Notes under the pieces: generated by a model | Databases searched by the model: none | The model's input: the letters and a program-made list of their open reading frames with translations, nothing else | What the model was told of the DNA's origin: nothing | Translations under genes and position numbers: made by a program | Shown here: piece after piece, positions 28,739 through 64,000 of the stretch | How the letters are laid out: the number at the start of each line of letters is the position of its first letter | How positions within the stretch are numbered: the stretch's first letter is position 1 | Assembly (NCBI GenBank): GCA_030141605.1 | Contig: JAQGDQ010000017.1 | Coordinates: 624,001 to 688,000 of the forward strand | Length of the DNA: 64,000 nt | Source of the DNA: Tubiluchus corallicola | Taxonomy: Eukaryota; Priapulida; Priapulimorpha; Priapulimorphida; Tubiluchidae | Direction of reading: 5' to 3'

Positions 28739-28806
28739 CCCTAACCCTAACCTTAGCCCTAACCCTAATCCTAGCGCTAATCCCAATCCTTACCCTAATT
28801 CTAATC
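28739..28806. repeat. Degenerate telomere-type (CCCTAA)n array
   Basis: Eleven hexamers in register: CCCTAACCCTAACCTTAG, then two more exact CCCTAA units, then diverged units (TCCTAG, CGCTAA, TCCCAA, TCCTTA), one exact CCCTAA and TTCTAA. The array lies between imperfect inverted sequences, AGTTTACAATTGCCACACAA at 28711-28730 and TTGTGTGTGTGG plus AATTATAAACT at 28826-28848. It is an interstitial telomeric sequence by pattern; origin unknown. Confidence 0.75.
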
Positions 28807-36118: not shown

Positions 36119-37225
36119 TATAGCCAGGTAAAGATTTGTTGAATTGAACATATGTGTGTATTATAAAGATTAAACTTAATATTACAGTAATATTTTTTAG
36201 AAGCAATGGAGTACGAGTCTAATTTAATTGATTTTAATTTGATTTATTAACCCTCAATTCAAATCTACAGATAGTGTACAAACATGTAACAATACAACAG
36301 AATAAAATATTATTAAGAATAAATAAAAATTTTGAGTGTTGGGGAGGCATAAAGTGAAAAACTGCTTGCATGTGCCTTTATAATATTTGAGAAAATTATC
36401 AAGATCAATTGAACACATACTTTTGCAGAATTTGGAAGTGAATTGCATATGTGAACAATCTAGTTAGAAAAAATGTCCAAACTGCATTTTATTTGTTCTT
36501 TGTACAAGCAGTTTTGACGAATTGTTACTCTGCACAAAATCAGATAAAACCCTAGTAAAATACCTTATATAAGCGTGTACAAGTCGACCTTATGTACAAG
36601 TCGATGTGCATTTTAAGAACAAAAATTGCATCATTTTATATATTACCTGTGTGCAAGTCGACCATAAAATATTAAGATCTTCCAGAGTAAATGATGTCAA
36701 CAATGGCCGAGTAATAAACCAATAGCCTACTGTGTTAATGTGCAAGATATGTGCAAGTGCCTGGGCCGAGTATATTATACCTACCCGATGTATATATGTA
36801 TATGTATATATATTCATATTGAGGGCCCTCAATGCAATCCATGATAATGCAGCCTGGCTTTTCAGTGCGCATATTTGTTTGTAATGCCTTTAATCCTAGG
36901 ATATTATGGCCAGGATACGAAAAAAACATATCGAAAGCATAAGTCGACCCCAATAAGTTCACCTTAAAATCGCCTCCCAAAAAATTGTACGGTACGCAAG
37001 TACGGTACTTTTCAGCACTCAGATCTACATCTTTATGAATGATTTTATAACACATATATAGGTTATTTTGAATTTGTTTTCCTTCTAACGACTTTAAATT
37101 TAAAACTTTTAGTCTGTAGCCATCAACTTTTTGAGTTTGTGTCCTCCTTGCATTTGTTGAACTCAGCCATAAGCTCAAAATGAGTATGTTATGCGTTGAG
37201 CCCTGAAATGAGTTCGAATAAACTA

Positions 37226-37720
37226 CCATATGTCAGCAGAAGTAATATGAGAGCAGTTCTCAAGAGTTGATTTGGTAACACCTGTCATCTTACTTGGTGT
37301 ATTACTGACCATATGTCAGCAGAAGTAATATGAGAACAGTTCTCAAGAATTGATTGGTAACACTTGTCATCTTACTTGGTGTATTACTGACCATATGTCA
37401 GCAGAAGTAATATGAGAACAGTTCTCAAGAATTGATTTGGTAACACTTGTCATCTTACTTGGTATATTACTGACCATATGTCAGCAGAAGTAATATGAGA
37501 GCAGTTCTCATGAGTTGATTTGGTAACACTTGTCATCTTACTTGGTGTATTACTGACCATATGTCAGCAGAAGTAATATGAGAACAGTTCTCAAGAATTG
37601 ATTGGTAACACTTGTCATCTTACTTGGTGTATTACTGACCATATGTCAGCAGAAGTAATATGAGAACAGTTCTCAAGAGTTGATTTGGTAACACTTGTCA
37701 TCTTACTTTGTGTACTACTG
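37226..37720. repeat. Tandem array, six units of 82-83 bp
   Basis: Unit starts (CCATATGTCAGCAGAAGTAA) are at 37226, 37309, 37391, 37474, 37557 and 37639, giving spacings 83, 82, 83, 83, 82. Units are over 90% alike. Each contains a palindrome, GAGAACAGTTCTC in units 2, 3, 5 and 6 and GAGAGCAGTTCTC in units 1 and 4. The one-base difference comes from TTGATTTGG versus TTGATTGG. Confidence 0.95.
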
Positions 37721-43300: not shown

Positions 43301-45887
43301 AACTCTGTTATTTTTGCTTGCTTCACATTTCATGCCCTCTTCATGCTAACTATGAAATTACAACTGCAGCAGCACACATAGACCTGCCAACACATCTCAT
43401 GTACTGTACTTAACACTCATTGTTTTTGCACGATTTATAAATTAATCCCTCAGTTACTTTTTTGACCTTGTTTAATGGTGCCAATTTTCCCTGTGTTTAA
43501 GACTCTGTGCTCACTATATCCAGTGGAAATACAGTCACAGGGTGGAAAACTTCCCTCGTAATAAGAAAACTTCCCTTTAAAATTCCCTTATTAAACCCAG
43601 AGGTATTTTAACAGTAAAAATGTGCCATATTTCTCTTGCAGTTAAAAGAAGAACAAGCCTCTACTGCCTCTGCAAGTAACATCATTGAAGCTGACGGTCC
43701 ACCTCAACTCTCTGTGAGCGGCATTTATTACAACTGTGCTTTGATTGGCCCAGATGTGTTACCTTACAGTGAAATGGAGTTACGAATCAAGAACTTCCTG
43801 TACACCCAAGCAGAGGAGGAGCCTGCACTTGGTTATGCACTTATCATACAAACTTTAAACAAAAGCCCGGAGAAGGTCAAGATATGTGTGGAAACCCTTT
43901 GCAAGTATTTAGACAACATTATTCAAAATCCAGATGAGGAGAAATTTCGAAAAATCCGTCTCGGCAATAAAGCGTTTCAGGAGCGGGTGAAGCCGATCAC
44001 CGGTGCCGTGGAGTTCCTCCAAGCTGTTGGCTACAAAAAAGAGATGCAGCATGTCCAAGAACAGGAAGAGGAATTTCTTGTAATTTCTCCAGAAAGAGCC
44101 CGGGAAACGGGCTTGTTTATCGAAATGAAAGAGGTTTTAGTTGCCGCGGAACCGATTCGGCCGCAGCTTGATCGTTCATTGAGAGTGTTTGCATCTTCGG
44201 GGAACGTGACAAGGTTCGATTTGCCGGATGAGTTCTTCAACGTTACGGTAGAGGAAGTAAAGAAAGAGCAGCGACAGAGAACAGATGCTATGGAGAAACA
44301 ACTGCAGCTGAAGACTAAAGCTATGAAAGAAAGAGAAGAACAGAGAGAACTCAGAAAGTAAGTAATAAGCACACATTTATAGTGTGTTTATAAAGTGGAA
44401 GTCCCAGTTTCTCTTTTTTTATATAGTAATTATGGTACCATTTATGTCTTCTTATGCTTTGTTAGTTTAATTCGACTTGCTTAATTAATGTTCCTTTTAG
44501 CTGTAGTTGTATCCAAAACTGGAATATTAAAAAGTAGCACCATTTTTTACATTTGCTTGATTAACCTGGCTGTGTCTTCAGTATCTTGGTTATGGACTGC
44601 TTTGTTATTTACATAAGTAAAATTACAGTAGAAATATGTTTTAGTTCTGACAAAAACCGCATTTCCTGTAAATCTGTTCCTTTTTTTGGCAAATACCATT
44701 TCATTTAATAAACTTTCCCAGTTTTCCTGATTTCAAGTATAAACTCCAACATTTGTAATTCTGCCATAAAGCATTATCTTGCTGCCGAAATTGGCACTTT
44801 GCCCTGAATAAGACTGTGAAACCTTTGAATTTTGTGCACAGACTGTAATAATGCTAATGGCTTCACATTGTTTCAGATACAGGTTTACATTAATCAGGAT
44901 ACGTTTTCCGGACAATGTCACACTACAGGGCACGTTTCGTTCAACAGAAACCATAGGTGCCATCTATGAGTGCATACGGGAAAATCTTGTTAACAGCTGG
45001 CAGCCATTTTACTTGCTGACCGGTGACGGAAGCACCAAGTTAGAGGAGGAGTGTTCTGAAACGTTAGCGGAGTTAAAGTTGGCTCCTGCAGCTCTGATCA
45101 TCTTCACATGGGAGCCAGAGGTTTGTGCGAATGCTTTTTTAGTGATTAGTTAGGTAGTAAGATATCTGTTGGTCACTCGTTTGTTATACAACAGAGCCAT
45201 TGTGAATAGGAAAACACCTCAAAATCTCATATTTTACATATTTCTCTACTCTTTTTTGAGTAATGCTTGCACTCTTAAGTGCATTTACAGTTAACTAAGT
45301 GTAACTCGACCCATTATAACTCGAATTCTTGCATATCTTGAACAGATCTCGTGAAACAGATTTTCCCTTTCATTTTTCTCTTTGTCAAACATTGTGTAAC
45401 TCAAACAGTTTATAAGAATTCCTGGCACAGATTACCCTGCCTTTTCGAACAACCTCCCAAGTAACAAATCACATGGAAAAGTGTTTACGATTTTAACTGC
45501 TAGTTTGAGCAAAAATGCTAAAATTTCTTGTATTACCCTAGCAGACTGTTGAAAGCCACATGGTTTAATGAACATAGTTTAATAACTAGATCACATTATT
45601 AATATTATTGCCAAATTCTATTAACCATGCTAATCAGATTATAATAAAACCTGTTGTCCCCCACTAGAATAGTGGTCATGTTATTTCCATGCAAAAATTG
45701 CTATCTTTTCCTACCAAAACTTTATGGATTAAGAATGTAGAGTATAAGTTTCAAGGTACTTCACTAAATTAGTGTTTCTTCAATTTTTCAGGTACTGAAA
45801 GAGATAAGTTCTCAACTTGGAAAGACAGATAAAGTGGAGTATCTAATGCCTTCTCTACTCGCTCGTATGGAAGCACTGCAGATTTAA
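39758..45887 (+). CDS. UBXN6: UBXN6 (UBXD1), UBX domain protein, 6 exons, complete
   Basis: Cytosolic adaptor of the AAA-ATPase p97/VCP, known in vertebrates for caveolin sorting and lysosome/mitophagy roles. Exons 39758-39872, 40778-40880, 41982-42063, 43642-44357, 44877-45120, 45792-45887; all GT-AG and in phase, total 451 aa (human 441). The N-terminus (MAAIKKFFMQKKADLKFKTA) matches the conserved KKFF...ADIKFKSAGPG start. Residues about 48-72 are Ala-rich (EEAKKAAEAAIARLE). A PUB domain, the p97 C-terminal tail binder, covers about 158-233 (CVETLCKYLDNIIQNPDEEK, RKIRLGNKAFQERV). A basic coiled-coil-like stretch (KKEQRQRTDAMEKQ) precedes the UBX domain at about 339-420 (YRFTLIRIRFPDNVTLQGTF). 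Exon 6 gives the short tail SLLARMEALQI. AATAAA at 46209-46214 is a plausible polyadenylation signal. Confidence 0.95.
40097..40635 (-). mobile_element. hAT MITE, family H1, copy 2, carrying a (CT)n tract
   Basis: Begins CAGTGGCAGCTCATATCAAA and ends AGGAGCCACCACTG. It is flanked by GTTGCATT (40089-40096) and GTTACATT (40636-40643), a 7/8 target duplication. It lies in UBXN6 intron 1 in the opposite orientation to the 41184-41702 copy. A CT dinucleotide run of about 90 bp (40262-40350) has grown inside it and creates the long Leu-Ser and Arg-Glu open frames seen on the two strands, which are not genes. Confidence 0.9.
41184..41702 (+). mobile_element. hAT MITE, family H1, copy 3, with perfect 8-bp duplication
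   Basis: Begins CAGTGGCGGCTAGTG and ends CTACGAGCTGCCACTG. It is flanked by ATTTAAAT on both sides (41176-41183, 41703-41710). The 519-bp element has no transposase. It sits in UBXN6 intron 2. Confidence 0.95.
42617..42720. repeat. Fragment of CAGTC/CTCGTTATA pogo-type MITE
   Basis: ACAGTATAATCCATTTATAA, GCTCGTTATGACC and TCTCGTTATAGCCGAGG words mark one arm of a pogo-type MITE in UBXN6 intron 3. The other arm is not clear. Confidence 0.4.
45280..45660 (+). repeat. Dispersed repeat family R2, copy 2
   Basis: Aligns with 2640-3010: TGTAACTCGACC, TATCTTGAACAG, TTTGTCAAACATTGTGTAAC, AAAATTTCTTGTATTACC and GCCAAATTCTATTAACCATG. It lies in UBXN6 intron 5 in the same orientation relative to the window as copy 1. 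Non-coding. Confidence 0.6.
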
Positions 45888-47236: not shown

Positions 47237-50200
47237 ATGTCAGCGGCGTTTGGAATTCATGTGGGTACAACTACCGCTTCTTTAGCAGTTTACAAGGTAC
47301 TTTACGTTTCGTTTGATTAAGGTTAAAATGGTTCGCGTTTGTGTTTCCCTCTATAGTTTATGTTAAGTGGATAGTTTCAGTTTGTCAGTGTCAGGATTAT
47401 TTGTCCGTACTTACACGAGTGATTTTTTTGTATTTATTTAATATTAGACAAATAACATACAATTACATGCACAGATATAATACATGCAATTGCATAAACT
47501 GAAAATAAAATTACTACAATCATTTATCAAGTGAGCAATCCTTTAGTGAACAAATGACATGCAACTGTTACAGGCTACAGCTGAGCTGAAAGCTAGAACT
47601 TGGAAAGCCCAACTCCAATACATGGTGTGTTGTTACTTATAGAGGTTAGGAGCAGGATAAAAGAGATGCGCAATGAAAAGAGATGACATGACGTAAAAAT
47701 TAGTTTGTAGGTAAATAATATAAGTAAAATAGAAGAAAAAAGAAAAAAGTGATGAAATGTAATGAAATGACTATGTGTACAGGGACGAACTGTAAGTGGC
47801 AACCAACGGTGAACACAAAATGGAAAGAAAAGTTGAAGACAAAATCCACCTAATTCGTATTTAAGAGATATGTTTTCATCTCATTCTTAAATCTAGGTAG
47901 GCATGATACTGTTCTGATATTGCAAGAAATAGAATTCCAAACATTGGTCTTTATGAGTCATTGTAAAGAAGTGACTGGTTTTGAGCATTATTATATAGTA
48001 CCTAGATTAGGTTCCAAATTTTGAAATTGTCAACTGATGAAGCACCGTTGGTTAATGATGAAAGATGATTCCATGGTTGAACTATGCGATGCCCAAAGAA
48101 GTGTGATTTGATGTTGGCACAAATAACTTGGACTGATGACTACGAAGAACTCTGTGAGGCCTGGAAAAAGTCTGTCTCCTTAAAAATCGTATTTCCACTA
48201 ATTATTTTGAAGCAGTTCACAAGGTCTACAGTCTCGCAGCTTTGCTCGAGAGTAGAAATCAAAATGGCTTTGCTACTACCATTGTTTGAATTACTACTTA
48301 ACTGTAGTCAGCGTCAAAAAATGATTAGATGATATTAATATTAATATAAAAATTAATATTACTTGCTGTTTTATATCAGTTTATGTTACTGTTGCAAGTC
48401 ACTTTTTCTAACACTTTGCTACTACCATTGTTTGAAAGTACCACTTAACTGTAGCCAACATCAAAAAAATGATTAGATGATATTAATATTAATATAAAAA
48501 TTAATATTACTTGCTATTTTAGTTAAAAGATTGCGTAAAAGTATTGTGAATTTTTTTAGCAGATTTGGAAAGAGAAAACATTATTAAAATTCACTGTATT
48601 TGCTCGAGCTTGGGAAAAGTTATAAGTCTAATTTTCATCAAGTTCACTTTGCATAAGATCACAAGTTACAACCAAACTGTTCAATGAATGTTTCGTAACC
48701 GGTTGTTTGAGTGTTTATTTAAGCGTCAGGCAAGAGTGACTGTAAGGCCTGTGTCACACAGAGAAAGGTATAACGAGCAAGCCGTAATCCGTAAGCTATA
48801 ACGTGTTTTCCATCTTCTAGTTATAAGGCGTATATCATATTCCGCAGTGTGTTCCTTTTTCTGTGTAAATAGTAGGATGTTTTGTTGTAATTCATTTCAG
48901 TAATGCACCTATCTGATTGTTGTGCTTAAAAATTGCTTTTTCATGTTTATGAGACCATTCTGTTATGAATTATTATGATGTAAATGAATTGTGCACTGTA
49001 AAAACCACAAACATGCTAATTACTATGTTAACAATGACCCAAAACACCTTTATGAACCACTCAAAATGCCTTTATGAACCTCCCATTATGGCTGACGGTT
49101 GACAGTAGGCAGAAGATGCAAATGGATTATCTATATGACAGGGACCATTGGTTAGCACACATTCACTTTTCATGTGGTGGCTTTTTCTCCTCACGGCTTA
49201 CACCTTACATATTATGACCAGTTCTGTGTGGCAGGGGCCTAAGAGTGCTTCGTCACATGTGGTCAACCTATTTTTCACCTTAAGTACGATAGACATACAG
49301 ACTGATATAAAACCGTGATTTATTACTGATTGAATGTTATTGTTGTTTTTGTAACAATAGGATGGAAGAACAGATGTTGTTGCTAATGATGCCGGTGATC
49401 GAGTTACCCCTGCATTTGTATCTTTTTACGAAGGAGAATTGGTGAGAATGGCTACTGTCATAACACATGAAGTCATTTTAATTCATTTTACTGATGACTT
49501 AGTCGAAAGGCTGACAACAGATTACAATAATATAGATTTCATGTAATTTTATAATACAATGAAGTGTAATAAACCTAATCAAATTGAGTTTTTTTCATTA
49601 TTTTAGACAGTAGGTTTGGCAGCAAAGCAAGGCCTTATCCGCAATGGTAGGAATACTATGTGCAAGGCAAAGCAACTTATTGGGCGAGAATTTACTGACC
49701 CGTTGGTCCAGTCTGTCAGCAAACTAGGACACAGTGAGGTATTTTGATTTGTTTCATTTCAAACTTTACAAAATTCACATACACACAAATTAATAGAAAG
49801 ATACAATAAATTACGACTCATAATAATAACACAAATAACGTTATAACAAACTACGCCAATGATGACTAATTTCAGAAGTAAAGTTTATATCACCGTTTAA
49901 AATGCTCTTGCATATGGAATTTTCACTCTTATTCAGCCTGACATATAAACTGTATACACATTTTCTGTAAATCACATCAATATAAATAAGATTAAATGTA
50001 GCAGAAATATATATAGCGCTCGTATCATATGAAAAGTTAAACAGCTTCCGTGTTGATACATAACGTTGTATATTCGACCTTGAGTTTCCTAAGATTGTAA
50101 GAATAAAAATGTCTCCAAGTGGACATACAATAAAAAGTAATACAGTAAGCATAACACATTTGTTTCTTGAATTTAACCGAACATAAGTTATTTATTGGCT

Positions 50201-53200
50201 CTGCCATAGTAAATTGAACATTGTCGTAATATATCTAAATAATATAAATGTCAATGTTTACTGTTTGTGTGCTTGCAAACCAAAACCATCCATAAGTCGG
50301 CATAGTTAAAACTACGTTATGATGCCTCAAAGTAGAAAGCACCAAAAGTTTGGTCAAATGTCGATTTTATTTTTTACGAAAAAAAATGCTAAATATATTG
50401 GACTTTTATAATTTAGCATCAAATTATCAGGAAAATGTTAAAGGAATACTAAAATTTAATTTTATAACTCCTTGTCCACTTTTCTGTCTAGAAACTAGTA
50501 CTGCAATTGTAAAAAAACTGTACATTAAAACTTCGATTGTAATTCGTGGAATCCGACATTTTGCCTTGGGTTTTTTCTGTTGACAAGACCAGATCTTCGT
50601 CTGGAAGAACCATCTACTAGATTTAAGTGTAACTTTGATTTGCTCTTGTAAAATCCACAGCAACCACACTTTCGTACTGTTTCTAAGTGTTTTGTAGAAA
50701 CGCGACAAAAAAAACAATGGGTGACTTTAACAGCGTCTTTCTCAAGATTACGTTTTCCAGTGCGTAGCCTGCACCTCAACTTCAACGTAGATTACCTCAG
50801 CTTAGAAATAACATAGAGCGATGAGCTTGGTATCAAAATGATACTCATGAAATGGAGATTCGGGATATGTGAATAACTAGAAAAGCTTAATTGCTTACTC
50901 ATGCAAGCATACATTTATTAATAATTACTTAATTAGCTGCAGAAATAATGTGTCATATCTAATTACTTACAGTCTTTATGTCAAGATTATCATTAATGAT
51001 GGAACAAATTTGCAAATGACTAGAATTTGATATCGTCAAAATACAAGAAATGTTAAAAGTTTTAACACAGTCTGGATTTGAACCAATGATTCTCAGCTTA
51101 TAAGATTTTGTTTGCACACATTGTGAAACTAGATTTAATTGGCACAGTATATTTTATTTAGATTATTAGCAAAGACAATGCAGTTTTCTACCAAGTTTAT
51201 AAAAATGGGAAGCAACCAGTTCACTTTTCATCCGAGGAGATTATGTCAGCCCTATACAAACATATGAAAGGTACTGGATACTTTCATTTTTATTTACGCT
51301 CTTGTGCAGTAAACTTGGGAAATGTTAAACTAAACTGAAAATAATAAATTAAATTTTTGAAAAAATGTAGCCCGAAGAAAGAAATAAGAACAAGTGTAAA
51401 AGACAGAGTGCCGGTTAAGTTTGCATTTGAAAGATTCCATGTGCATAATAACTTTGCATTTCCCCATTTTGACCATGTTTAGCTTCAAAAATTATAACCC
51501 TGCCATTAATTAGTACACTCATATCTCAGTTTGTCGGACAAAAGTGAGGAGACATTTGTCGAATTTGACGATTGTCTGTATCTAACATTGCTATTCTAAT
51601 ACAGAAAGCGCCATGTATTAGACTCACAGCAATATAGAATCAATAATCTAATTGTCTCAAAAATGTCTAGTACGGGCCACTCCTATGCAAAGGTATATAA
51701 AAACTCTTGGCAATTAACTCAAATAAATCCGCATAATTGATTCGAAACCACTTACACATGCTGTTTAAACCACTTAAACAAGCTGACATACAAGCTACAC
51801 ACGTGTCATTACATGCTGCTTGCATGTAAACAAAGTGACGGCCCGCCGACTCGCGAAACAACTGAGTGTATCCATAGTATGGTCCAGGTTTTGTCCGATT
51901 CTTCCAATATCCGTAAAAGCGAGGTTCGGCAAACCGAGATATGAGTGCAATATTTTTAACCAACTTTTTTTAGGTAGCTGACAGAATACTATCAATTCCA
52001 GAAGCTTTCTGTATGTTTTTTTGGGTATTGTTTTGTTTTCCAGTTATTGCCATCAGCCATCTACCAGAGAAAGGCAAAACTGATTTGAATGTGGTTCTTA
52101 CAGTACCACTCGATTTTACCAACAAACAGAGAAAGCTTATCACGTGAGAATTTTTTCATTTTTTTCTTTGTGAAGATGTTTGAAGATCAAAAGGTTGTTT
52201 TAGTTAAGAGAACTACAGTCAAACCTCCCCTTCTAACGTCCCCTTTATTATGCCTACCTCACTTAATGCTCAGATTTTTAGCAAAACAAAATATCTGTTT
52301 GCTCAGACATGTATGTATTAATGCACCTCGTTATGACGCCAACTTTTTTTGCAGTCGCAAAGTAAGCTATATAAAGAGATTTGACTATGTGTACTTTAAA
52401 TTTAGTACTAATTTCATACATTTCATGGTTTCATCACTAGTAAAACTGGCGTGTTGAAGTTGCACTTGCCCCAAAGCATTTAATTTGGTTTTATATGTGA
52501 CTACAGTCTATTGCTTGGTTTCTGTTGATGGTTTCTCTGAGTGGTTTCCCTTGATAGTCATGTTTGTTTTTTCATAAAAAAGGGCTATAAATAGTGCTAT
52601 ACAATGAAACATGTCATTCGACTACATGTGCAGATTTAGCTATTTTATGACTGGAAAAAGTTTTTTACCTCTTTCTAAAGGGTGAAAGCTAAATGTGCTG
52701 TGGCAGAACAGACTAATAAAAGAACCTGGTAAACTTTGCAAGATCAGTCTTTTTAGGTCAAAACTAGGCTTCTTTAGTAGGATGAATTTGACTTTTAACT
52801 TTTATAGGCACTTTGAGGAACATTTGTTTTTTGTCTTGTTAGATAACTTTGTTGAATTTTAACATTTAACAGTTTAATTATAAGTTGTGACTTATAACAC
52901 CAAAATTTTCTTCAGAAAGAATGATTCTAATTTCATCTATTACTTCGTATATTTCGGCAAGAAACTGGTATAAGGTAAAATGACTTCACTTTTTAGTGCT
53001 GCTGCTCACAAAGCCGGTTTTCGAGTTCTTCGCATAATAAGTGAGCCGTCTGCATCAGTGTTGGCTTATGGGATAGCTCAAGATGATCCAAAAGAAATCA
53101 GGTGCCAAGTTTTTGTAATTTTTGTGCAACATCATTTATTAAAATGTAAGTGCTGCATGGATAGAATCCATGGGATAGAAATACGGACTTTAACGTTCCA

Positions 53201-53507
53201 CATCCTAACTGCTTATGATTCAGTTGTATAATTGCAAATTGATAGCACTTGTAATAAAATTAAGTTTTGATTAATGTATTCTGTTCTCTTCTCAAACACT
53301 TTGTGGGAATCCTCGTTACTAAACTGATGTACATTTACTTTCCAGCAATACTTTAGTGTACCGTATAGGTGGCTCATCTGTCGATGCTACAGTAGTCAAT
53401 GCAAATGGCGGCATATACAGTATCGTAGCTAGTGAGTGTTTACCTCATCTCGGTGGCGATGCCTTCACTGAGGCCATTCTAGAATACTTCGCTGGTGAAT
53501 TTCAAAG
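47237..53507 (+). CDS. HSPA14: HSPA14-like Hsp70 (Hsp70L1/RAC subunit), first seven exons only
   Basis: HSPA14 is the atypical Hsp70 that pairs with the J-protein DNAJC2 in the ribosome-associated complex, helping nascent chains fold in the cytosol. Exons: 47237-47296, 49361-49441, 49607-49738, 51162-51270, 52044-52143, 52997-53101, 53346-53507; all GT-AG and in phase, about 249 residues. The start [20 protein letters not shown] matches the family. The nucleotide-binding domain is readable through [91 protein letters not shown] and [18 protein letters not shown]. The last exon ends at AAAG|GTATTT and expects another. The remaining half of the NBD and the short substrate domain (about 260 residues) are not seen in the next 10.5 kb, which is filled by receptor-like copies. 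Either the next exon is beyond the window or the gene is broken. Confidence 0.88.
48263..48520. repeat. Direct duplication of about 105 bp in HSPA14 intron 1
   Basis: TTTGCTACTACCATTGTTTG through GATTAGATGATATTAATATT to TAATATTACTTGCT occurs twice, about 148 bp apart, with around 90% identity. Each copy ends in the palindrome-rich ATTAATATTAATATAAAAAT tract. Non-coding. Confidence 0.85.
51570..51960 (+). repeat. Dispersed repeat family R3, copy 3
   Basis: ATAATCTAATTGTCTCAAAA, GGGCCACTCCTATGCAAAGG, TATATAAAAACTC and GGCAATTAACTCAAATAAAT parallel 8741-8850 and 34990-35075. After that it diverges from the other two copies. It is located in the HSPA14-like exon 4-5 intron. Confidence 0.5.
52216..52385. 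mobile_element. CAGTCAAACCTC-family pogo/Tigger-type MITE
   Basis: Left end CAGTCAAACCTCCCCTTCTA; right end GCTATATAAAGAGATTTGAC, followed by TA; TA also precedes the left end. Internal ATGCACCTCGTTATGACGCC is shared with 7208-7230. It lies in the exon 5-6 intron of the HSPA14-like gene, 72 bp after the exon 5 donor. Confidence 0.75.
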
Positions 53508-54099
53508 GTATTTGTATTTCTAGGCTTGGGCTTGGTTTTGGGCTTCGTTTAATGGGATGTTTCTTTGTTGTTTGGGAAAAAGAAAAGGAAAATGAGCAGT
53601 CATTGTTACCATTATTGCGATATGGGACTGCTATTGTCTTTTTGAGACAGGCTTGAATATTTTAAAACCTGTATTGTCTCAACTTGTATATTCTTAATTT
53701 GACTGTTATATGAAACATTAACTTAACTACTGTAGCTGTTGTGTACGTGGCAAAAAGTATACTTCAAACTTATTTTTAGCCCCAGTAGCCCATTACTTTC
53801 GCTAAAAGTGTTAAGTGGCAAACAAAGCATTATGTGAAATGTTTATGCATTGTGATTATAATGATCCCAATTTAATCTCATTGACGCACAGAGTTCCTTG
53901 AAGAGCTTTTACTTGTCTTACACCGATATCGCTTCTGTTGTTGTTGCTGTTGCTATTGTCATTGCCATTTACAAAGATGAAAATGAATGACAACGACGAT
54001 GATGTGGGCATTTTTAATGATGATGAAAACGATGATGATTATAGGGATAACTTGTAGTCAGCATGTAAGCGGTCAGAGCCACCTATCCATAGTTAAGTG
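53508..54099. other. Sequence after last visible HSPA14-like exon
   Basis: No further Hsp70 exon is seen. Imperfect trinucleotide runs (TTGTTGTTGCTGTTGCT, then GACGACGATGATG and ACGATGATGATT) lie at about 53935-54040. Confidence 0.5.
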
Positions 54100-54460
54100 A
54101 AACTAATTAATGTGTGACCATAAGCTAAAACTAGTTTTCATAACCAACATTTAAATATCAGATGTGTATTCGAGCAGACGATCGATAGCACAAGTTTTGA
54201 CACAAGAGATTTGGCTCAATATATAACAATCTTGTCCACTTCATTTCGAATGTTTTATGTATAACACAAAACACACAGCTAATTAACAGAGCACGTGTAA
54301 CACACTGGATGTTTACACATACTTTGTAATGGCTGTAGACAACTCCAATATGACAAGATATTAATCAATTTGCCCACACAGCTTTATTTACTTGTGTACT
54401 AGTTCCAGTTCGACACTAGAGAATAAACACCTCCAACGTAAAAATTAAACAGTTAGATTG
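54100..54460 (+). repeat. Receptor-cluster upstream flank, copy A
   Basis: This non-coding block precedes receptor copy A and matches 55915-56440 before copy B and, more weakly, 60500-60800 before copy D. Shared words include GACCATAAGCTAA, ATATATAACAATCTTGTC, AACACAAAACAC, AATGGCTGTAGACAACT and AGAGAATAAA. The duplication unit therefore includes the upstream DNA, presumably the promoter. Confidence 0.75.
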
Positions 54461-55168
54461 TGCACCTGTTAGATTGGTTTGGATGTTTTTTTCATGTCAG
54501 TGGAAATTTGCTGCTTTTCAGTATCAAATCATGAGTTTTTTCACAGTAGTGGTTGTTTTGCTTCCCCAGCAGCCTTACCAATGTTATTATTCTTGGCTGG
54601 CATTATAAAACTGCAAACAGTTGTAACAGTAAAAAGTGATTTCATTTCGTCAGCAGTAAAGGTGGAGCCAGATCATTTTGCCCACTGTTGCAGTCAGTCA
54701 GCAAAAATTGGTAAGACTGATGTGGCAGGTGATAACCATATCAGCAGTTCGCTCAATGGGACATTTATTCGGTTACTGCTTGGCAGGAAGAAAAAGACAA
54801 CGAACGGCTATTGTTGCTATTATTGCACTTACTGAGCAGAACTATCAATTTTATTTATAGCATAAAGTACTTCACTCACAATAATGGCAACTAATACATC
54901 TATTACAAATTTTGGTGTAACTGATCTGATTAACTGAGCGCAGAAAACATTTATGTTATTTACACGTTTTTTGGAGCTCTCCAATGTCGATTGCACTCAA
55001 GCGAGAAGAGCTTAAATATTTTAAAAGTGCATCTCTTTTATCCCCATTTGCACAGTCCATTTGGCTGTCTTGTGTAGCCTGCAGCCTACTCATTGCATTC
55101 ATCATATACATAGAGGAAAAACTGTATGTGCACCACAACAAGAATGACTTTAATAAACATTTGAAGTA
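54461..55168 (+). pseudogene. Ionotropic-receptor-like pseudogene, copy A
   Basis: Close relative of copy B (56472-57917). The N-terminal stretch reads FFHSSGCFASPAALPMLLFL then LQTVVTVKSDFISSAVKVEP up to SSSLNGTFIRLLL. A frameshift near 54780 follows, and the S1 region runs on in other frames with stops. The M1 part is again clean at 54984-55150: SIALKREELKYFKSASLLSP, AQSIWLSCVACSLLIAFIIY, EEKLYVHHNK. Homology stops abruptly there; pore, M3, S2 and M4 are missing. It is a truncated, disabled tandem duplicate. Confidence 0.85.
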
Positions 55169-55914
55169 GCTCATAAACAGGCTTGAAAGAAAGTGTATAT
55201 CCAACATTTTCCTTAGAAAATCTCAGTTTTTGCAACTGTTTGCGTATTGCGGAGAAAAATGAGTGCACTTACAGTTGGAGAAGGCGTAGTTTACATAGTG
55301 TGTAGGTTCATTTAAAGAGACAGTCATTGAGCAAAATGGCTGGGTGTTCTTTTTAATCCCTAGAAAGGGGGACCTACATGCACTATGAGTTAAAATTGGA
55401 AGGGGTTTCAGACATTGATGTTTGTGCTTTTGTTAAAAAGTTGTTTAAAACATTTGTTTAAAAGTTTATTTTTTGTCTTTTGTTTAATGTCAATACAAAT
55501 TTTAATGAATTGCTTTGTGCAGTCAGTTGGAGCCACCAATCTGTTATTTACGGATAATTGTAGCTCGACTGGTAAGCAAAAATTTCAACAAAATACAATA
55601 ATTTAAATTGCCCAAAGTAGTCCCCATATGAAGGGGACAACATATTGCAGCATATCATGCAGTATAATAGTGTAAGTGTAAACATTAATACTAAACTTTG
55701 CATACATATGACAATAGCAGTCAACAGGAAGTACAAAATTATAAAAAACACTGCGAGTTTTGTTAGAGATGACTGTGAAGGCGACTTTTAAAAGTAGTTA
55801 AGTTCGGGGCATTTACCACTTCAGATGGCAAAGAGTTGAATACATTTATTACTCTACATGCAAAACTGTACAGACACACATTGAGTTGTTAATCCATAAT
55901 AAAGAGAAGCAAAT
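55169..55914. other. Spacer between receptor copies A and B
   Basis: No receptor homology. Short frames of 60-67 codons on both strands have no recognisable content. The stretch near 55770-55870 resembles 47880-47960 only loosely. Confidence 0.35.
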
Positions 55915-56450
55915 TAATTAATATGCAACCATAAGCTAACACACATTTTCACATGTTGTCATAACCAGTATTTAATAATCAGGATTAATGAAATAATGTG
56001 TTTTGAAACAGACTTGTGTCAAGTGTTAGTGGAAGTTTCGAAACGAGACGTATCTCAATATATAACGATCTTATCTACTTTGTTTCGAACCTTCTGGCTA
56101 TAATACAAAGCACTTATTTAACTAACACAGCAGATGTAACGCTCTGCGTGCTGCTTACACTTTTCACATGTTGTTCACAGCAATGGCTGTAGACAACTGC
56201 AACAGGATGAATAATTAAGTACTTTGGCAGTCAGCATTATTTGCTTGTGTATCAATACTAGAGGGGGCAATAGAGAATAAATGTTGCGGTTGTAAAAATC
56301 AAAATGCCATTAGTTAATAGGTGTCACTCTAATTGTTTAGATGATATTGTTTAGCGTCTTAGTAAATGTGAAATTGTTAACTTTATTAAGTGCAGAATAG
56401 TACAAATGCAAGTGCAGCTGTTAGACTGATTATAGATCATTCGTTTCAAT
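55915..56450 (+). promoter_or_regulatory. Upstream flank of intact receptor gene (duplicated block, copy B)
   Basis: Matches 54100-54460 over most of its length (AACCATAAGCTAACACACAT, CAATATATAACGATCTTATC, AGCAATGGCTGTAGACAACT, AGAGAATAAATGTTGC). Conservation between copies is what remains of the duplication and may cover a promoter. No specific TATA box or initiator can be assigned. Confidence 0.45.
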
Positions 56451-56471
56451 GTGCTGTTGTTTTTGTATCGA

Positions 56472-57917
56472 ATGATGAGATTTTTCCAGCATTGTGGTTG
56501 TTTTGCTTACCCAGCAGCCCTGTCATGGTTGTTCTTCATTTTGGCTAGTATAACAAAAATGCAAACAGTTCTATCAGCAAAAAGTGACTTCATATTGCCA
56601 CCAGTGAAAGTCAAACCTAATCATCTGGCCCACTGTTGCAGTCAGCCTGGAAACGTTCATCGGACTTTTGCAGAAAGTGTTCAGCATATCAGCTTTTCAC
56701 TTAACGGGACGTTTCTTCGTGTTGCTGCACGGGAAGAGGACAAAAAATATGAACAGCTGTTATTGCCACTGTTGGACATGCTAAGCAAGACTGTTAATTT
56801 TACTTACCATATTAAATATTTCACTGATAATGGTGGCAACGTTTCAGTTACAGCTCTTGCAGATTTTGGTTTAACCGATCTGATTATCTCTCCACTTGTA
56901 CACACAGCTGAGCGCAGAAAACATTTAAGTTATTTACACGTTTTTTGGAGCTCTCCAATGTCGATTGCATTCAAGCGAGAAGAGCTTAAATATTTTAAAA
57001 GTGCATCTCTTTTATCCCCATTTGCAAAGTACATTTGGTTGTCTTGCGTAGCCTGCAGCCTACTCGTTGCATTCATCATATACATAGAAGAAAAACTGTA
57101 TGTGCACCACAACAAGACTAGTTTACCCGGCCTTGCATATTTTGCAAGATATTCGTTGGCATCATTTCTTCAAAAAGACGGAACATCGTTACCAGGTGGA
57201 GTCTCATCTCGGGTTCTAATGTCCTGCTGGTGGATGTTCGCTATCTTGATGACCGCTGTCTATACTGGAATGCTAGTGGGGACATTTTTTCTTCAGAATC
57301 ATACGTATCCATTTTCCAACTTGGAAGAATTAGTTGCCGGACCGTATACACCAGCCCTAATCAGACACTGGGCATTTACTGAAATGCTTAAAACCAGTCC
57401 ACCGGAATCAAATTTTGGCCGCTTGTGGAAGAAGATGGAAGCTGACAGTGACGTTCGAGTTGATACGATAGACCAGAGTCTTGAATTAACATTTACTGGA
57501 AAGTACGTATTCGTTGGAACAACAAACTACTTGAAAATGCTCTTAATGCAGGATTTCCAGATGCATGGTTCTTGCCGATTTGTTTTGGCTCCATTTCACT
57601 TGACATCTGACGTCTATTCCAGCTGGACTGTGCCAAAAGGAAGTCCATACATAAAAGCTTTGAATCAGGGGTTACAGAGGTTAGCAGAGAGTGGCATTCT
57701 TCATGAATCATTAAAGAATTACTTCAGACAAGATGGCAACCATTGTTTCCTACCACACACACAGACAATTGCATCACATACTTTGGATTTGCATCACTTA
57801 AATACTGTATTCTTAGTCCTTGTTGTAGGCTTGGCAGTTTCCAGCTGTGTGCTACTGTTTGAATATACATGCTGGAAACTAAACACTCGATTTAAAATTT
57901 GGTCAAATTCTGGGTAA
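56472..57917 (+). CDS. Ionotropic-receptor-like (iGluR/IR family) protein, intronless, 481 aa
   Basis: Ligand-gated cation channel subunit of the divergent IR type, with no amino-terminal domain; IRs mediate chemosensation in protostomes, but ligand and role here are unknown. The frame opens at GTG 56451, but the first ATG is 56472, giving MMRFFQHCGC and a hydrophobic leader to about residue 28. S1 of the ligand-binding domain: about 70-165 (SFSLNGTFLRVAA, FGLTDLIISPLVHTAERRKH). M1: 186-206 (IWLSCVACSLLVAFIIYIEE). Pore region: about 220-243. M3: 248-274, with SCWWMFAILMTAVYTGMLVG in place of the classical SYTANLAAF. S2: 275-425, ending RLAESGILHESLKNYF. M4: 442-464. Arg148 or Arg149 in TAERRKHLSY may be the ligand alpha-carboxyl Arg. 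The only intact member of a plus-strand cluster. AATAAA at 58448-58453. Confidence 0.88.
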   Translation: MMRFFQHCGCFAYPAALSWLFFILASITKMQTVLSAKSDFILPPVKVKPNHLAHCCSQPGNVHRTFAESVQHISFSLNGTFLRVAAREEDKKYEQLLLPLLDMLSKTVNFTYHIKYFTDNGGNVSVTALADFGLTDLIISPLVHTAERRKHLSYLHVFWSSPMSIAFKREELKYFKSASLLSPFAKYIWLSCVACSLLVAFIIYIEEKLYVHHNKTSLPGLAYFARYSLASFLQKDGTSLPGGVSSRVLMSCWWMFAILMTAVYTGMLVGTFFLQNHTYPFSNLEELVAGPYTPALIRHWAFTEMLKTSPPESNFGRLWKKMEADSDVRVDTIDQSLELTFTGKYVFVGTTNYLKMLLMQDFQMHGSCRFVLAPFHLTSDVYSSWTVPKGSPYIKALNQGLQRLAESGILHESLKNYFRQDGNHCFLPHTQTIASHTLDLHHLNTVFLVLVVGLAVSSCVLLFEYTCWKLNTRFKIWSNSG

Positions 57918-58529
57918 TTCACTAATAATAACCAGTTGTAGCAGTATGTTATAATATTTTTAGTTTCATCACTTGTAAAATCAGTTAAAGTTTCAACTTG
58001 TTTACTTTGCTGTGTTCTCTTATAAAGAATAATAGAAGATTAGCAGTCAAACCTGAAATTGTCAATGCTATTTGTCCCTGGTGATCCTACTTATATGTTG
58101 TTTTGTGGACCACTATCATTTCATCTTGACTTGAGTAATTGATTTATTCAGATTACCTTTCTTCTAATAACATTTGGAAAATAGACTATTGCTGTATTAT
58201 TATAGTTAATTCTATTATTTATATTTATAATATAAAAACAATGTGCTGTCGTCTGTAAATTGGATAAATTTAGGACAGCTTATTGAGTTTTTTGTAAATT
58301 CTAAATTTAGGTTCAGAACAGAAACCTGTGCCTTATGCACCAGGTAGACATACCAAGTTCTTGTTGTATGCAGTACTTAAAGAAATACGTCTTAGCCAGT
58401 GGAGTTCGCCTTGTTTTCTGTAGTTGGGTAATGTTTCACTGAATGATAATAAAAGAGCACTTTGGAATTACTTGTGTAGTGACAAATGGTGACCAATATT
58501 GGTCAAGGGTACAGTTATAGCAAGAGCAA
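57918..58529. other. 3' flank of the intact receptor gene
   Basis: AT-rich, no gene. AATAAA at 58448-58453 could end the transcript of the 56472-57917 gene; it lies 530 nt past the stop. Confidence 0.4.
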
Positions 58530-59150
58530 CTGTGAAACAATTTCACTTGATGGTGCACACTGCGCACTTTCTTGCACGTTAGTAAAGGAAAGGAAAGATT
58601 TGGTTGATATTACAAAAACTTCGCTTTCCGGCTGAAAATCTCAGCTCTACCTATATTACAAGGTACTTCACTTATGGTGATGGTAATTGTGGTCATCCTT
58701 GGCATAAATGATTTATTAATTGCTCTTATTGTGTTTTCAACTGAAGGGAATAAGTGCTTTACTTTTCTCTTGTATTTTGGAGCTTACCCTGATCAATGCA
58801 TATAAAAAGAAAAGGCATACATTGATAACATTCTCTACTACTCTGTCCATTCTCAATATCGAATTGCCGTTACTTATTTTGCATGGAATTGTTGTCACTA
58901 TAATCGTGTATATTCAAAAAATGTATACTTTTTAACAGAATAAGAAAAACATCATTTTTCACAATCCAAGATATTTTGCTAGGGATGTAATATAGCAGCA
59001 TTTCTTCAGATAGATGGAACCAATCTTCCACGAGATACTGCAAAATGTACATTTGGTGGATTTTCATTGTAGTCATGTTAAGCTGGTTATATCTGTATGT
59101 TGGCTGTGTTGACAAATACTCACACTGTAGTTTTCTGACACTCTCATCTT
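58530..59150 (+). pseudogene. Ionotropic-receptor-like pseudogene, copy C
   Basis: Pieces homologous to copy B appear in order but in different frames: ETISLDGAHCALSCTLVKER at about 58535 (S1 start), RYFTYGDGNCGHPWHK at about 58660 (compare KYFTDNGGNVSV), LHGIVVTIIVYIQKMYTF at about 58880 (M1), PRYFARDV at about 58965, AAFLQIDGTNLPRDTAK at about 59000 (pore) and MYIWWIFIVVMLSWLYLYVG at 59045 (M3). Stops and frameshifts lie between them. The S2 and M4 parts are absent. More diverged than copy A, so older or faster decaying. Confidence 0.8.
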
Positions 59151-59329
59151 TTTGTGATGCTAAGAGAAATGATGGCCTGTTCGTACAGAAAGGGTTTTTA
59201 CAGAAACCTTGTAAAACACTGACATTGATTCTGAACTTGAAAAGTTGTGGTTGAAATGGTTGACAACCTACCTGTCACGATGTTTGAGGATAGTCTTATT
59301 TTAACTTACACACAACAGTAGTCTTTGTG

Positions 59330-59480
59330 GTAACAGTTATAAGCCTTTTCACAGCTCCAGAGATAGATAATGATCGTTAACAGGTCAAAGGTTAAGTGTA
59401 CCAGATAACACATATAAGTACACTTGACAACACCTCGCAGCCCATGCTATTGTAATAGTAACAATTTTAACATTTAGCTA
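59330..59480 (-). repeat. Dispersed repeat family R5, copy 2
   Basis: The reverse complement of this block matches 6300-6445 at about 75%, from ATTACAATAGCATGGGCT to GTGAAAAGGCTTAT. It lies between receptor copies C and D. Confidence 0.65.
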
Positions 59481-60499
59481 GGCCATACCTACTTAATTTT
59501 TTTCTTGTTCCCAAGCAAGATTCTGCTAGTAACCCTAAATCACTCTACACACAGACTAATGCATAATTTAGTAAAGTCCGCATAAAACAACTGAACTACT
59601 AAACTAATGCTTTGCATTACGCACATGTCATATGACGATTGTAGTTAAGACGCATTGCTGTGGTACACTCAACCTTTGATCTACAGCAATTACACGTGTG
59701 CACAACGAAAGTATAAAAAGGCTTATTGTCTTAACTTGATTGTAATACAGGACATTCAGAAACATGGCACTGAATTTTAATTTGCTGCATGGGTTGTGTC
59801 CAAAGTAAGTCCTTACACAGAGATTTTTAACCAACGATTCTTGACATTTATGTAGAGCTCTCTTGTGCAAGTAAGAGTTGACACTTTACTAAAGAACAAT
59901 GGGAGCAATAATTTATTACCACCTAAGCAGCGGGCTAATTCATACTTTAGATTTTACTCATCTTCATCCAGCATTTCTGTTTTTGCGATCAGTTAGTGCT
60001 TTCTTTGTGTTCAGTGTTAACTGAGTGCATATGCTCTAACTTTATGAATGAACAAAAAGTCGTTTTATGAAAGTCCAGTAGCATCCTTTAAATGCCTGAC
60101 CTACACTATCTTGTAATATGGTAGAAACTAGAAGGCATGCAATGTCTTCTCATTAATGTAATTTGCACATGCCTTTTTGTTATGTTAATCCTTTTTAATC
60201 TTTATAACAAAGATTACCTTTCAATAACAACATTAAATTTTAGTCACTGTTGTATTTTACCAGTGTGGTATTGCTGGTAGTTTATTAATTTGGTAATGTA
60301 ATTTAAATATGTTGGTGAGTATTAGTTTTTGTGTTTGAACTGGTAGACCCGCTTACAAATAAATAGTCGTTAGGTTTTATGGCAAAGTTGATTATGGTGC
60401 ATCAGTGATTATGCATATTTTGCCAAAATGTACTACACTATGTTTTCAACTTGATCAATCATTGATCAATATTTCAGTTATCTGAATTAGTGAAATGAA
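59481..60499. other. Spacer between receptor copies C and D
   Basis: No gene recognised. A minus-strand frame at 59628-59870 (80 codons) has no identifiable domain. Confidence 0.35.
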
Positions 60500-61069
60500 A
60501 CATTTGTGCGATTCTTTATGATATTATATCAGTTGTCAGCATTGGTGTCAATGCAAGAGACGTTGCTTAATATAATAACGATCTTTTCCACATTATTTGT
60601 AGCCTATTATATATAGTACAAAACACTTGTTTAATTAATGTAGCTGTAACACCCTGTGTCTATTTTTGCAATGGCCGAGTTGCTGATGTTTACAGTATGA
60701 TGAAAAATTAATTACGTTACCCATTCAACATTACCTGTGTGCATCAGTGCCTCTCTCACAGTTTTTAAATGCTCTTAGTTAATAGGTCTCATTCGAATAT
60801 GTTTCAAAAGTGGCTATCCTGGTTTGAAGGTCTTTAGTCACGGCTTCTTGAAAATGGCAGAGACTGGACTTCTTCAAGCAGAAATTGAGGATTCCTTAAA
60901 AAGGGACGGTCACCATTGTTTAGAACCACATAATAAGCAGACAGTTGGATCAGAATCATTAAATCTCGCTTGCTTAAGTGTAGTATTTTTACTTCTTCTA
61001 TCTGGTATAGCACTTTCTACTGTTCTGGTGTTGATTGAGTATGTATGCTTTAAACTCAAAAAGCAATAA
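60500..61069 (+). pseudogene. Ionotropic-receptor-like fragment, copy D (upstream flank joined to C-terminus)
   Basis: 60500-60800 resembles the upstream flank of copies A and B (TTAATATAATAACGATCTTT, ACAAAACACTTG, CTTAGTTAATAGGT). It is followed directly, at about 60821, by the last quarter of the receptor: FLKMAETGLLQAEIEDSLKR, DGHHCLEPHNKQTV (compare RQDGNHCFLPHTQTI), then an M4-like helix, LACLSVVFLLLLSGIALSTV, ending FKLKKQ at 61069. S1, M1, pore and M3 are missing, so a deletion joined flank to tail. The C-terminal frame is open (81 codons). Confidence 0.75.
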
Positions 61070-61147
61070 ATAAGTAAATAAATAAGCAGAATTTGTAAAT
61101 ATGTGCTTTAGTGCACCAACCTCTTCTGGGATGGTTGAAGTTTGACA

Positions 61148-61231
61148 TCTGACGCGCTGTTGTCAGTAAAATTCTCTGATGCACTGTTGTCAGTAAAATT
61201 CTCTGATGCACTGTTGTCAGTAAAATTCTTT
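61148..61231. repeat. 27-bp tandem repeat, three copies
   Basis: CTGTTGTCAGTAAAATTCT recurs at 61157, 61184 and 61211 (period 27) with nearly identical spacers (CTGATGCA; first copy CTGACGCG). It abuts repeat R1 copy 3. Confidence 0.9.
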
Positions 61232-61735
61232 CTGTTGACATTAAAGGAAGACAGGATGATTTTTCATATACTACCTCATTTTCAAGTCCGATAAAAACAA
61301 CTAACACAATTAATATTGCAAAAATGTTTCTGATTATTAAATAATAGATTAAAACGTAATTAGCTGTGGGAAAGCCCAACTGTTGATGACATCACAAACT
61401 AACATAATTTTCAACAGCAAAAATATTCCACGAGCGTGTTCCACGTGTTTGTGAAAGCGCAAATTGAAGTACAGTGCTACTGTAAGAGATTCAGCGTGTT
61501 GTAATAGAGCTCGGCAAGTTTTAAAATAAAAATTGAAATTTCAAATTTACCGCTGTGCTCAGGCATGAACAGTCGAAGGTGTGCAGTTTGTTACAAACTA
61601 TCACATATGAACTGAGAGGTACAGTACCGGTTTTTGTGCAAAATGCAGGCGCTAGTGCCCATCTAACTAGCGAATGGCAAAATACATTTGGGTCCTACAG
61701 TTTAACATTGGGTCCGGTTTTGCTTTAAAGTTGGA
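61215..61735 (-). repeat. Dispersed repeat family R1, copy 3 (inverted)
   Basis: The reverse complement follows 34236-34870: GCAAAACCGGACCCAATGTT, ACAGTAGCACTGTACTT, AATATTTTTGCTGTTGAAAA, ATTATTTAATAATCAGAAAC and CATCCTGTCTTCCTTTAATG. It lies between receptor copies D and E. Confidence 0.75.
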
Positions 61736-62900
61736 CCAAATGATTAGAAAGGTTCTTTATTTCTTTAATGTATTTGTAACAGTAGTTAATCCAGCAAAGA
61801 ATTGTTGTACATATAAATATGGCTGTTTCTGGATGTTTCCCTCCTACTGGTTCAATAAAATACATATGTTGTATATATTACTGTAAAATATACTATACTA
61901 ATGATACTATAAATAATGTACTGTAGAGTTGTACAAAAAATTGTACAGTGTGGCCCAGATGTCTCACTTTTGATGGGACTGAACCTTTCTTTTTGTACAA
62001 GTCCTGCTATCTTCGCCAAAGTGCTCTGGTGTGCTAAAAAAGTCTCGTTTTTAGCAATTACATGGTAAAATATGAGGCAGATATGCAGTAGTTACAATTC
62101 TATATCTTAAAATTATCACTACACACAACTTAAATTTCGGTAAACTTCAGATTGTTGCAAGTCAAACAAAAACCAACGCTGTACGTTATGGAATGTTTGA
62201 CATCACACCTGTAAGTTATGTCAAATTAACAGGTGACATCATACTAATAATATGTCCTTATCTTGCAATTCAAAAAACCTGGCCACCTATTTTATATCTT
62301 ATTGTCAAACTATGTTTATTGTAATTGCCACTATAGAGATATTACCACATTTTCTGTTTAGATGACTAGCTGTTATGCTGATTTAAAGTAAATGCTTTAC
62401 TGGTCTAAATAAATATCCCATTACTCAGCCAAACGCTGATAACATTTTAGTTTTTAAAGCTTAGATTTATTTCTTATGAATTTTAGTAAGAAATAGTTAA
62501 ATAGTTTCTTTTTTGAATATATAAAATTTAGTGCACACTTACGCAATAACATAAGATTGTATTAAAATAGATATTCCACCTATATATGTCAGTATGGCAT
62601 AAAGATATTGATTGTTGCTTACAAGATAATAGTGATAGTTTGCAAAATAAGATTTGTTTTTATTACGTCACATTAAATCACATTAACTATGTACACATTT
62701 TCTGACATAATTATAACAGCATCTGGGTATTGTAACAACAGCTCCCGAGTAAGCGTACCACCATATTTTAAAATAGCATAGTGCATTGGATGACCTCTGT
62801 AATGCTAGTGTTCGTACAGTGGCGGGCATTTTGTGCATATTGATACACATTTTCTTATGTCCAACAACTGAAGAAGAAGGTTACTTACTAATAAATCATA
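61736..62900. other. AT-rich spacer before receptor copy E
   Basis: No gene, no HSPA14 exon and no receptor homology seen. Several ACATAT/TATATA runs. Confidence 0.4.
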
Positions 62901-62916
62901 GATTTGTTTAGAACCC

Positions 62917-64000
62917 GTGACAACTATGGTACATTATCTGCCATTTGGCATAATCCCTTTCTGCCTTGTAAATGCTTTCATTGGAACTGGCGTGGTAAGC
63001 GTTGCTTCTGTGATAAGAAAAGACAATTCCACTTGTGCGATACAAGGGCCTGTTAATAATAATGGAATGATAATGCCAGTCATAGATGCAGTTGTGTTAT
63101 GATCAGACATTTTCACGTTCAAAAGTGAAGAATAATATATGTTGCTGCAGCCTGTTTCTTAGGCGAGGAATTTTACACTTTGCTTTATTTTGCTATTGAA
63201 ACTGGTACTTCCATTTTGAACCTTGGCAAGGCTGACTTACTCATTCCTTATCACCTACTTATGGTTTAACACAGTAAACTATAATGTATACCATTTCTAC
63301 TTGTGTTGTGGGGTTCAGCATGAAGTATATTAGTCAAGAACAAGAACAGTTACGGGTTGTAACTAAAATTTCTTCAGAAAATTTTTAGCCATTGTTTTAA
63401 TACCGTGTAAAATGAAACAAACACATGTAATTTTATTATTGTAATTTTAATATGAAATAATTTACTATGAAAGTTTATGCATAAACTTGATAAAATCCCA
63501 AAAAAAAATTTTTTTCTTAAATTGTCACAGTTCAAGCTTGATTCATTTAGTAAGTACGTGACAACTAACAACAAACTGTGTGAGCGACAGTACTTTCTCT
63601 ACCTTTACTCAGACATGTGCACATGGCCCCATCTGCACAACAGCCAGACACTACATTGCTGGAGCACACTGTGCTGGGCTGTGAAGCAAACAGTACTACC
63701 CTTGCATGTTCTGGTTGCATTCAAAGTATAAGGAATGAAATAAAGAAAAAAGACTTATTATATTGAATATTATTGATAATATTGAGTGGAAATAGAGGAC
63801 GCTACAATTCACAATACCTATGCACGAACCACCTCTGAACAAGATCACAAACACTTTGAGCATTCAGTGCTCTTATCCTCATTTGTGACGTCAATTTGTT
63901 TGTGTAAGTCTTTTAATCTTATAAATGCTTTTCTTGGACATACAGAAAAAAAGCTGTATATAAAACACACAGTTACTGAGTCCCTTTTTAAGTTGTGATT
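62917..64000 (+). pseudogene. Ionotropic-receptor-like pseudogene, copy E, interrupted by a MITE and by the window end
   Basis: Degenerate pieces in order: a leader-like start (MVHYLPFGIIPFCLVNAFIG, 62917), an S1-like piece at about 63160-63270 (FAIETGTSILNLGKADLLIP, compare LADFGLTDLIISP), then, after the hAT MITE at 63347-63837, the pre-M1/M1 piece EQDHKHFEHSVLLSSFVTSI and HTEKKLYIKHTVTES (compare REELKYFKSASLLSPFAKYI, IEEKLYVHHNKTS). Frames differ between pieces, with stops. It may continue past 64000. The start at 62917 is the least certain part. Confidence 0.65.
63347..63837 (-). mobile_element. hAT MITE, family H1, copy 4, inside receptor copy E
   Basis: Begins CAGTTACGGGTTGTAACTAA (compare CAGTGGCAGCTCGTAGCTAA in the reverse of copy 3) and ends GAACCACCTCTG. 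It is flanked by AACAAGAA (63339-63346) and AACAAGAT (63838-63845), a 7/8 target duplication. Interior words match copies 1-3: AGCCATTGTTTTAATAC, CAGTACTTTCTCTACCTT, GGCTGTGAAGCAAACAGTAC, AATATTATTGATAATATTGA. It interrupts the receptor-like sequence just before the M1 region. Confidence 0.85.

Follow-up and report, generated by a model that had tools for sequence, protein, structure and literature searches.

The stretch of the Tubiluchus corallicola genome analysed here comprises 64,000 nucleotides of contig JAQGDQ010000017.1 (forward-strand positions 624,001 to 688,000; hereafter the window), and its 3' end carries a tandem array of five gene copies, A to E, related to the ionotropic receptors (IRs). 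Copy B has an open reading frame, the other four copies are broken, and the whole array is embedded in a predicted intron of a gene of the HSP70 family. A short patch of copy A is nearly identical to copy B. The coordinates of all these features are collected in Table 1, where positions past 64000 extend the window numbering into locus L039 (64001 = L039:1).

Copy B lies inside an open frame at 56436-57917, and the first-pass annotation of the window, made from the sequence letters, was right to describe it as open over 481 codons without introns. Of the two profiles named there for verification, Lig_chan (PF00060) matches codons 188-454 well above its cut-off (62.7 bits against 30.8; profile positions 4-146; E-value in Table 1), whereas Lig_chan-Glu_bd (PF10613) stays below the Pfam cut-off (20.1 bits against 30; E 7e-4). 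Among PDB structures the best match is the AMPA receptor GluA2 (E 2e-21, codons 131-469), and delta and kainate receptors match as well. The predicted protein has the layout S1, M1-M3, S2 and M4 with a split ligand-binding domain. The amino-terminal domain of the ionotropic glutamate receptors (iGluRs) is absent: S1 homology starts at about codon 88 of 481, and the exon has no room for such a domain because an in-frame stop lies 36 nt 5' of the ATG. By its predicted domain content, copy B is a member of the IR family. In a single pairwise HMMER alignment with GluA2 the S1 arginine is retained and a lysine stands opposite the S2 acidic residue, these two being glutamate-binding residues of iGluRs. 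Since the acidic residue aligns with lysine in this one alignment, glutamate is an improbable ligand, and copy B would be expected to bind something else.

At least 89 places in the genome match copy B, almost all of them as a single open frame of ~430-530 codons, and copy B belongs by these predicted frames to a large, expanded, lineage-specific and mostly intronless set of divergent IRs. Its best relatives in the same genome share 45-48% identity over 440-460 residues, the nearest of them lying on other contigs (C2334 and C225), and copy B retains 50 of the 56 conserved positions of the family, defined as those common to at least 85% of 28 relatives. A further trait of the IR family is expression in chemosensory neurons alongside a co-receptor (IR25a, IR8a, IR76b). 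Lig_chan-bearing frames of 919-932 codons are also present in the genome. Odorant-receptor searches gave a small number of weak matches. On two further contigs the IR clusters contain pairs of equal score on opposite strands (for example C344:13866-15077 with C344:46366-47577, and C75:4928-6145 with C75:12609-13826), a pattern that hints at inverted duplications or at artefacts of assembly.

The broken copies were scored by frameshift-tolerant alignment, with strict gap costs, to a profile of five proteins (copy B and its four nearest relatives), and pieces drawn from the window up to its 50-kb mark, aligned on both strands to the same profile, served as controls. The control maxima were 39.0 (470 b, n=212), 38.3 (870 b, n=114), 39.1 (1800 b, n=54) and 45.6 (2600 b, n=38). 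Copies A (308.8), C (202.4), D (134.4) and E (55.3) all exceed them, in agreement with the first description of five plus-strand copies within 10 kb. The same alignment revealed no further receptor copy within 51500-54450, nor over the 10 kb that follow the window end.

Each of the four copies is broken in its own way. Relative to copy B, copy A has gaps of 1, 1, 5 and 20 nt plus one in-frame gap of 3, and its homology stops at 55145, as expected from its description as frameshifted and cut after M1. Copy C does run through several frames, but the claim that it extends only to M3 has to be corrected: it is collinear with profile codons 96-467 and reaches M4 (codon 467 at 60034), which makes it almost full length. 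The inverted-repeat element inside it, absent from the first description, has 39 other scored copies with 80-84% identity and the termini AATAAGCC...GGCTTATT; insertion with a TA target duplication and a restored frame was considered for this element and is not borne out by the coordinates. Copy D was rightly seen as an upstream flank fused to the C-terminal quarter of the gene. Its flank can be followed to B position 56340, ~130 nt before the B start codon, and joins ~codon 390 directly, so that ~1.3 kb must have been lost; the remaining coding tail has 39% amino-acid identity to copy B. Copy E is fragmented and carries, as had been proposed, a hAT-type miniature inverted-repeat transposable element (MITE), flanked by a target duplication identical at 7 of 8 positions (63339-63346 AACAAGAA, 63838-63845 AACAAGAT) and related to elements with the common hAT-like termini CAGTGGCGGCTCGTA...ACGAGCCGCCACTG. 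A permissive first alignment gave 102.5 for copy E against 100.0 for the best control, and the strict setting separated it from the controls; copy E is the weakest and least certain of the five.

The sequence upstream of copy A is 69-70% identical to that upstream of copy B, and the flanks of B and D share 67% global identity (shuffled mean 44%, maximum 53%), with a best block of 73% over 106 columns. The flank was not detected for copies C and E, and a genome search found no copy of it outside the array, so that a transposon was rejected. A promoter common to other IRs was also considered and rejected, as a profile of the three flanks had no significant match at any of the further IR loci examined. 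The aligned flanks thus support the earlier proposal that the predicted duplication unit of A, B and D is flank plus gene. Taken together, the receptor family, the tandem unit, the presence of a single open copy beside four that are dead, and the hAT MITE had all been recognized correctly from the outset.

Two features go beyond that account, the nesting of the array in an intron and the copied tract in a pseudogene, and neither needs a new mechanism. Two short frames directly upstream of copy A match HSP70. The genome search with PF00012 returned on contig C716, on one strand and in order, pieces covering profile positions 34-84, 154-188 and 186-240 before the array and 287-330 and 317-384 after it (overall span 34-384), and a gap-filling HSP70-family piece lies at 65715-65873. 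Joining the donor after 53507 (exon ending in GEFQ) to the acceptor before 65717 (exon starting with RRWKGDVREN) produces one open frame, and the next intron likewise joins in frame. This predicted exon structure shows that the host gene belongs to the HSP70 family and that all five receptor copies lie in a single intron of it, on the same strand. In sequence it resembles HSPA14 (HSP70L1), and it is likely the HSPA14 ortholog. Farther downstream, a piece at L039:5980-6099 resembles the C-terminal part of the same gene. The nesting matters for any RNA-seq over copy B, because host pre-mRNA would give same-strand intronic reads there, and such reads from a chaperone transcript can mimic receptor expression. 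Annotation pipelines may also drop or fuse receptor genes nested in this manner.

The second feature is a patch of copy A in which identity to copy B is 96.2%; elsewhere in the gene it is 73.3%, and the flank stands at 70%. The best high-identity A-B segment beats all 5000 permutations (p = 2e-4). The synonymous distance (dS, NG86 method) is 0.073 inside the patch (bootstrap 0-0.16) and 0.74 outside (0.48-1.15), and third codon positions differ at 2 of 70 sites inside against 44 of 136 outside. The patch is collinear in copy A, with identity raised at both silent and replacement sites; its left edge lies beside the 20-nt gap at 54931 and its right edge is the truncation point of the copy. The patch itself is clear, and we read it as a stretch that was copied later from B, either through gene conversion or through patched repair, with a small second duplication as the alternative. 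The direction from B to A is suggested by the broken state of A. The locus had been called a compact record of receptor birth and death, and the one open and four dead copies agree with this; the record is not one of simple decay, since copy A later gained 210 bp of B.

Comparison of copy B with its intact relatives is saturated at silent sites (NG86 dS 4.7 or undefined), and the A-B pair was therefore used to estimate omega, the ratio of nonsynonymous to synonymous substitution rates (dN/dS). Over the 126 codons outside the patch it is 0.375 by NG86 (bootstrap 0.22-0.64), 0.42 by YN00 and 0.46 by maximum likelihood. The first-pass annotation had held that neutral dN/dS in copy B, combined with a lack of expression, would speak for a dead cluster; the values found for this pair point to constraint on B instead. 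Differences outside the patch fall on first, second and third codon positions in the numbers 40, 23 and 45, second positions differing about half as often as the other two (Fisher p = 0.0017). In neutral simulations with 0.165 substitutions per site the B frame stayed open in none of 2000 runs. The substitution pattern and the simulations indicate that selection acted on copy B during the greater part of the time after A and B separated, and because copy A adds a neutral stretch of time to the comparison, B itself was probably more strictly constrained than the A-B omega suggests. Most likely it still makes a chemosensory cation-channel subunit.

These observations fit a history of ordinary IR turnover by birth and death. 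A single-exon divergent IR gene would have been located in the large intron of the HSPA14-like chaperone gene, where unequal crossing-over probably duplicated the gene in tandem together with its flank and so would have given rise to five same-strand copies. Copy A would then have died through small deletions and the loss of everything after M1, copy C through numerous indels and stop codons and the insertion of an element, copy D through the ~1.3-kb deletion from its flank to codon 390, and copy E through decay and the hAT MITE, while the frame of copy B would have been kept under selection. After the divergence of A and B a short stretch of B would have been copied into A. In the simplest single event, ~210 bp of B would serve as the template for repairing a break in A, and end-joining would complete the repair; we infer this route, as it would explain the patch, the truncation of A and the 20-nt loss at once, the alternative being plain conversion followed by deletion. 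The array thus offers a compact and legible example of how chemoreceptors turn over, in which several modes of gene death stand side by side with one survivor and sequence flows from a live receptor copy into a dead one.

We hold with considerable confidence that the locus is an intronic tandem array of single-exon IR genes in which four copies are dead, selection has preserved B and A has received a stretch copied from B. Some results weigh against parts of this reading. In the tree, copies C, D and E show only weak grouping with A and B (support no higher than 0.54), so that their common descent within the array is argued mainly from position, strand and flank. The coding tail of copy D, with 61% DNA identity to B, is also more diverged than its flank (67% over the whole, 73% in the best block). 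As to the number of copies, C and E might be chance matches in an array of three, and single pieces of E do score barely above their controls (42.2 against 39.0 and 38.5 against 38.3); this is very unlikely, given that C reaches 202 against a control maximum of 45.6, which already refutes the idea for C, and that the two pieces of E, codons 112-168 and 169-213, adjoin exactly in profile coordinates on either side of the inserted element, with a joint score of 55 against 39. The failure of C or E to align to B, which would have lowered the copy count, was not observed (202.4 against 45.6 and 55.3 against 39.1). A rather unlikely alternative is that copy B is itself dead or dying, open only through a very recent loss, and that the whole array is a graveyard. 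Four of the five copies are dead, and neutral drift of 0.02 substitutions per site leaves the B frame open in 22% of simulations, so that a very recent death is compatible with the data; yet B has no indel and no stop, it retains nearly all strongly conserved positions of the family (50 of 56), and the A-B omega is well below 1.

The patch invites two other explanations. The family conserves M1 and the final part of S1, the regions that the patch spans, and its similarity could reflect shared selection on this part of the protein; we consider this highly improbable, and shared constraint is excluded as the main cause because silent sites show the same contrast (2 of 70 against 44 of 136 third positions, dS 0.07 against 0.74), while the rest of copy A is broken and identity changes abruptly at both ends. 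The patch might instead be a B fragment inserted separately by a second small duplication, as both its edges are discontinuous (at 54931 the 20-nt gap, at 55145 the point where A-B homology ceases). This is possible, although the patch sits in A at the collinear position where conversion or templated repair would put it. That the dead copies are not inert, with the B near-copy of 210 bp in A, on the sense strand of the chaperone intron, being maintained by repeated copying or acting on B through RNA, and the array co-regulated with its host, we regard as barely credible.

Table 1. Features of the receptor array and its host gene (window positions, 5' to 3' on the forward strand)
Feature	Coordinates	Strand	Details
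Copy A upstream flank	54192..54427	+	69% identity to B flank over 252 aligned columns, E 9e-19
Copy A, broken receptor truncated after M1	54505..55145	+	Profile score 308.8; DNA alignment, gap list
B-like patch in copy A, 210 bp	54936..55145	+	Counterpart B 56910-57119; candidate conversion or patched-repair tract
Copy B upstream flank	56033..56281	+	Counterpart of A and D flanks
Copy B, predicted intronless divergent IR	56472..57917	+	481 codons (56472-57914) plus stop; PF00060 E 4.4e-17
Copy C, decayed; several frames over codons 96-467	58604..60034	+	Score 202.4; control maximum 45.6
Inverted-repeat element inside copy C	~59338..59727		Between codons 350 and 354; terminal inverted repeats
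Copy D upstream flank	60548..60804	+	Aligned to B flank up to B 56340
Copy D coding part, codons 390-472 (end of S2, M4)	60812..61063	+	Score 134.4
Copy E left piece, codons 112-168	63174..63338	+	Score 42.2; control maximum 39.0
hAT-type MITE in copy E, 491 bp	63347..63837		8-bp target duplication, terminal inverted repeats, many copies
Copy E right piece, codons 169-213 (M1)	63840..63968	+	Score 38.5; control maximum 38.3
HSP70-family (HSPA14-like) multi-exon gene	49574-53507, then L039:1717-3897	Same as array	Spans receptor array
HSPA14-like exon just 5' of array	53344..53507	+	HSP70 profile 186-240, E 3.9e-9; GT donor at 53508
Host intron holding whole array	53508..65716	+	12.2 kb; extends 1716 b beyond window end
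Dispersed repeat between A and B, ~345 bp	55544..55889		~40 scored genomic places, 72-86% identity

Several repeats and genes of the window stand apart from the receptors. At C1877:64473-65689 the inner part of the dispersed repeat between A and B (query 502-585) forms a tandem series with a period of ~91 bp, which suggests a satellite grown out of the dispersed element. Just 3' of copy D there are three 27-bp units (61148-61229, 96% matches), followed by a repeat at 61241-61686 that has an inverted relative at 34851-34393 (80%). Elsewhere an 83-bp unit forms six near-identical copies at 37225-37720 (95% matches), and a degenerate CCCTAA-like, telomere-similar repeat at 28737-28807 is internal to the contig. 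An open frame at 43618-44358 contains a PUB domain (PF09409, E 1.7e-28), as found in UBXN6-type proteins. On the minus strand, two long open frames at 22343-25267 with a threonine-rich stretch and a stretch of 24-bp repeats, for which the only Pfam match is a weak one to MGC-24, may represent one mucin-like membrane protein.

Several traits of the array have counterparts in known chemoreceptor families of insects and of a dipluran. The divergent IRs of insects are mostly single-exon genes found in tandem arrays that are attributed to non-allelic homologous recombination, and they include pseudogenes (Croset et al. 2010, PMC2924276). The array described here shares with them the iGluR-like S1-pore-S2-M4 protein, the mostly single-exon genes, the tandem arrangement and the pseudogenes, and differs in being nested within the intron of a chaperone gene that is itself conserved, a situation for which a narrow literature search found no other case. 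The dipluran Campodea augens has 2,424 mostly intronless IRs, with 901 pseudogenes and many fragments, attributed to unequal crossing-over (PMC6938034). Mostly intronless IRs of one expanded lineage are common to both species, whereas the Tubiluchus family as scored is smaller (at least 89 B-related matches), and the array pseudogenes are old and heavily decayed, unlike most Campodea pseudogenes, which have a single mutation (PMC6938034). Gene conversion has been inferred among chemosensory paralogues of Drosophila, IRs included (PMC4122928), and the A-B patch resembles those cases in being a stretch of a paralogue that is more similar than the remaining gene. It differs from them in two respects: the other member of the pair is a pseudogene, and the tract stops where that pseudogene is truncated.

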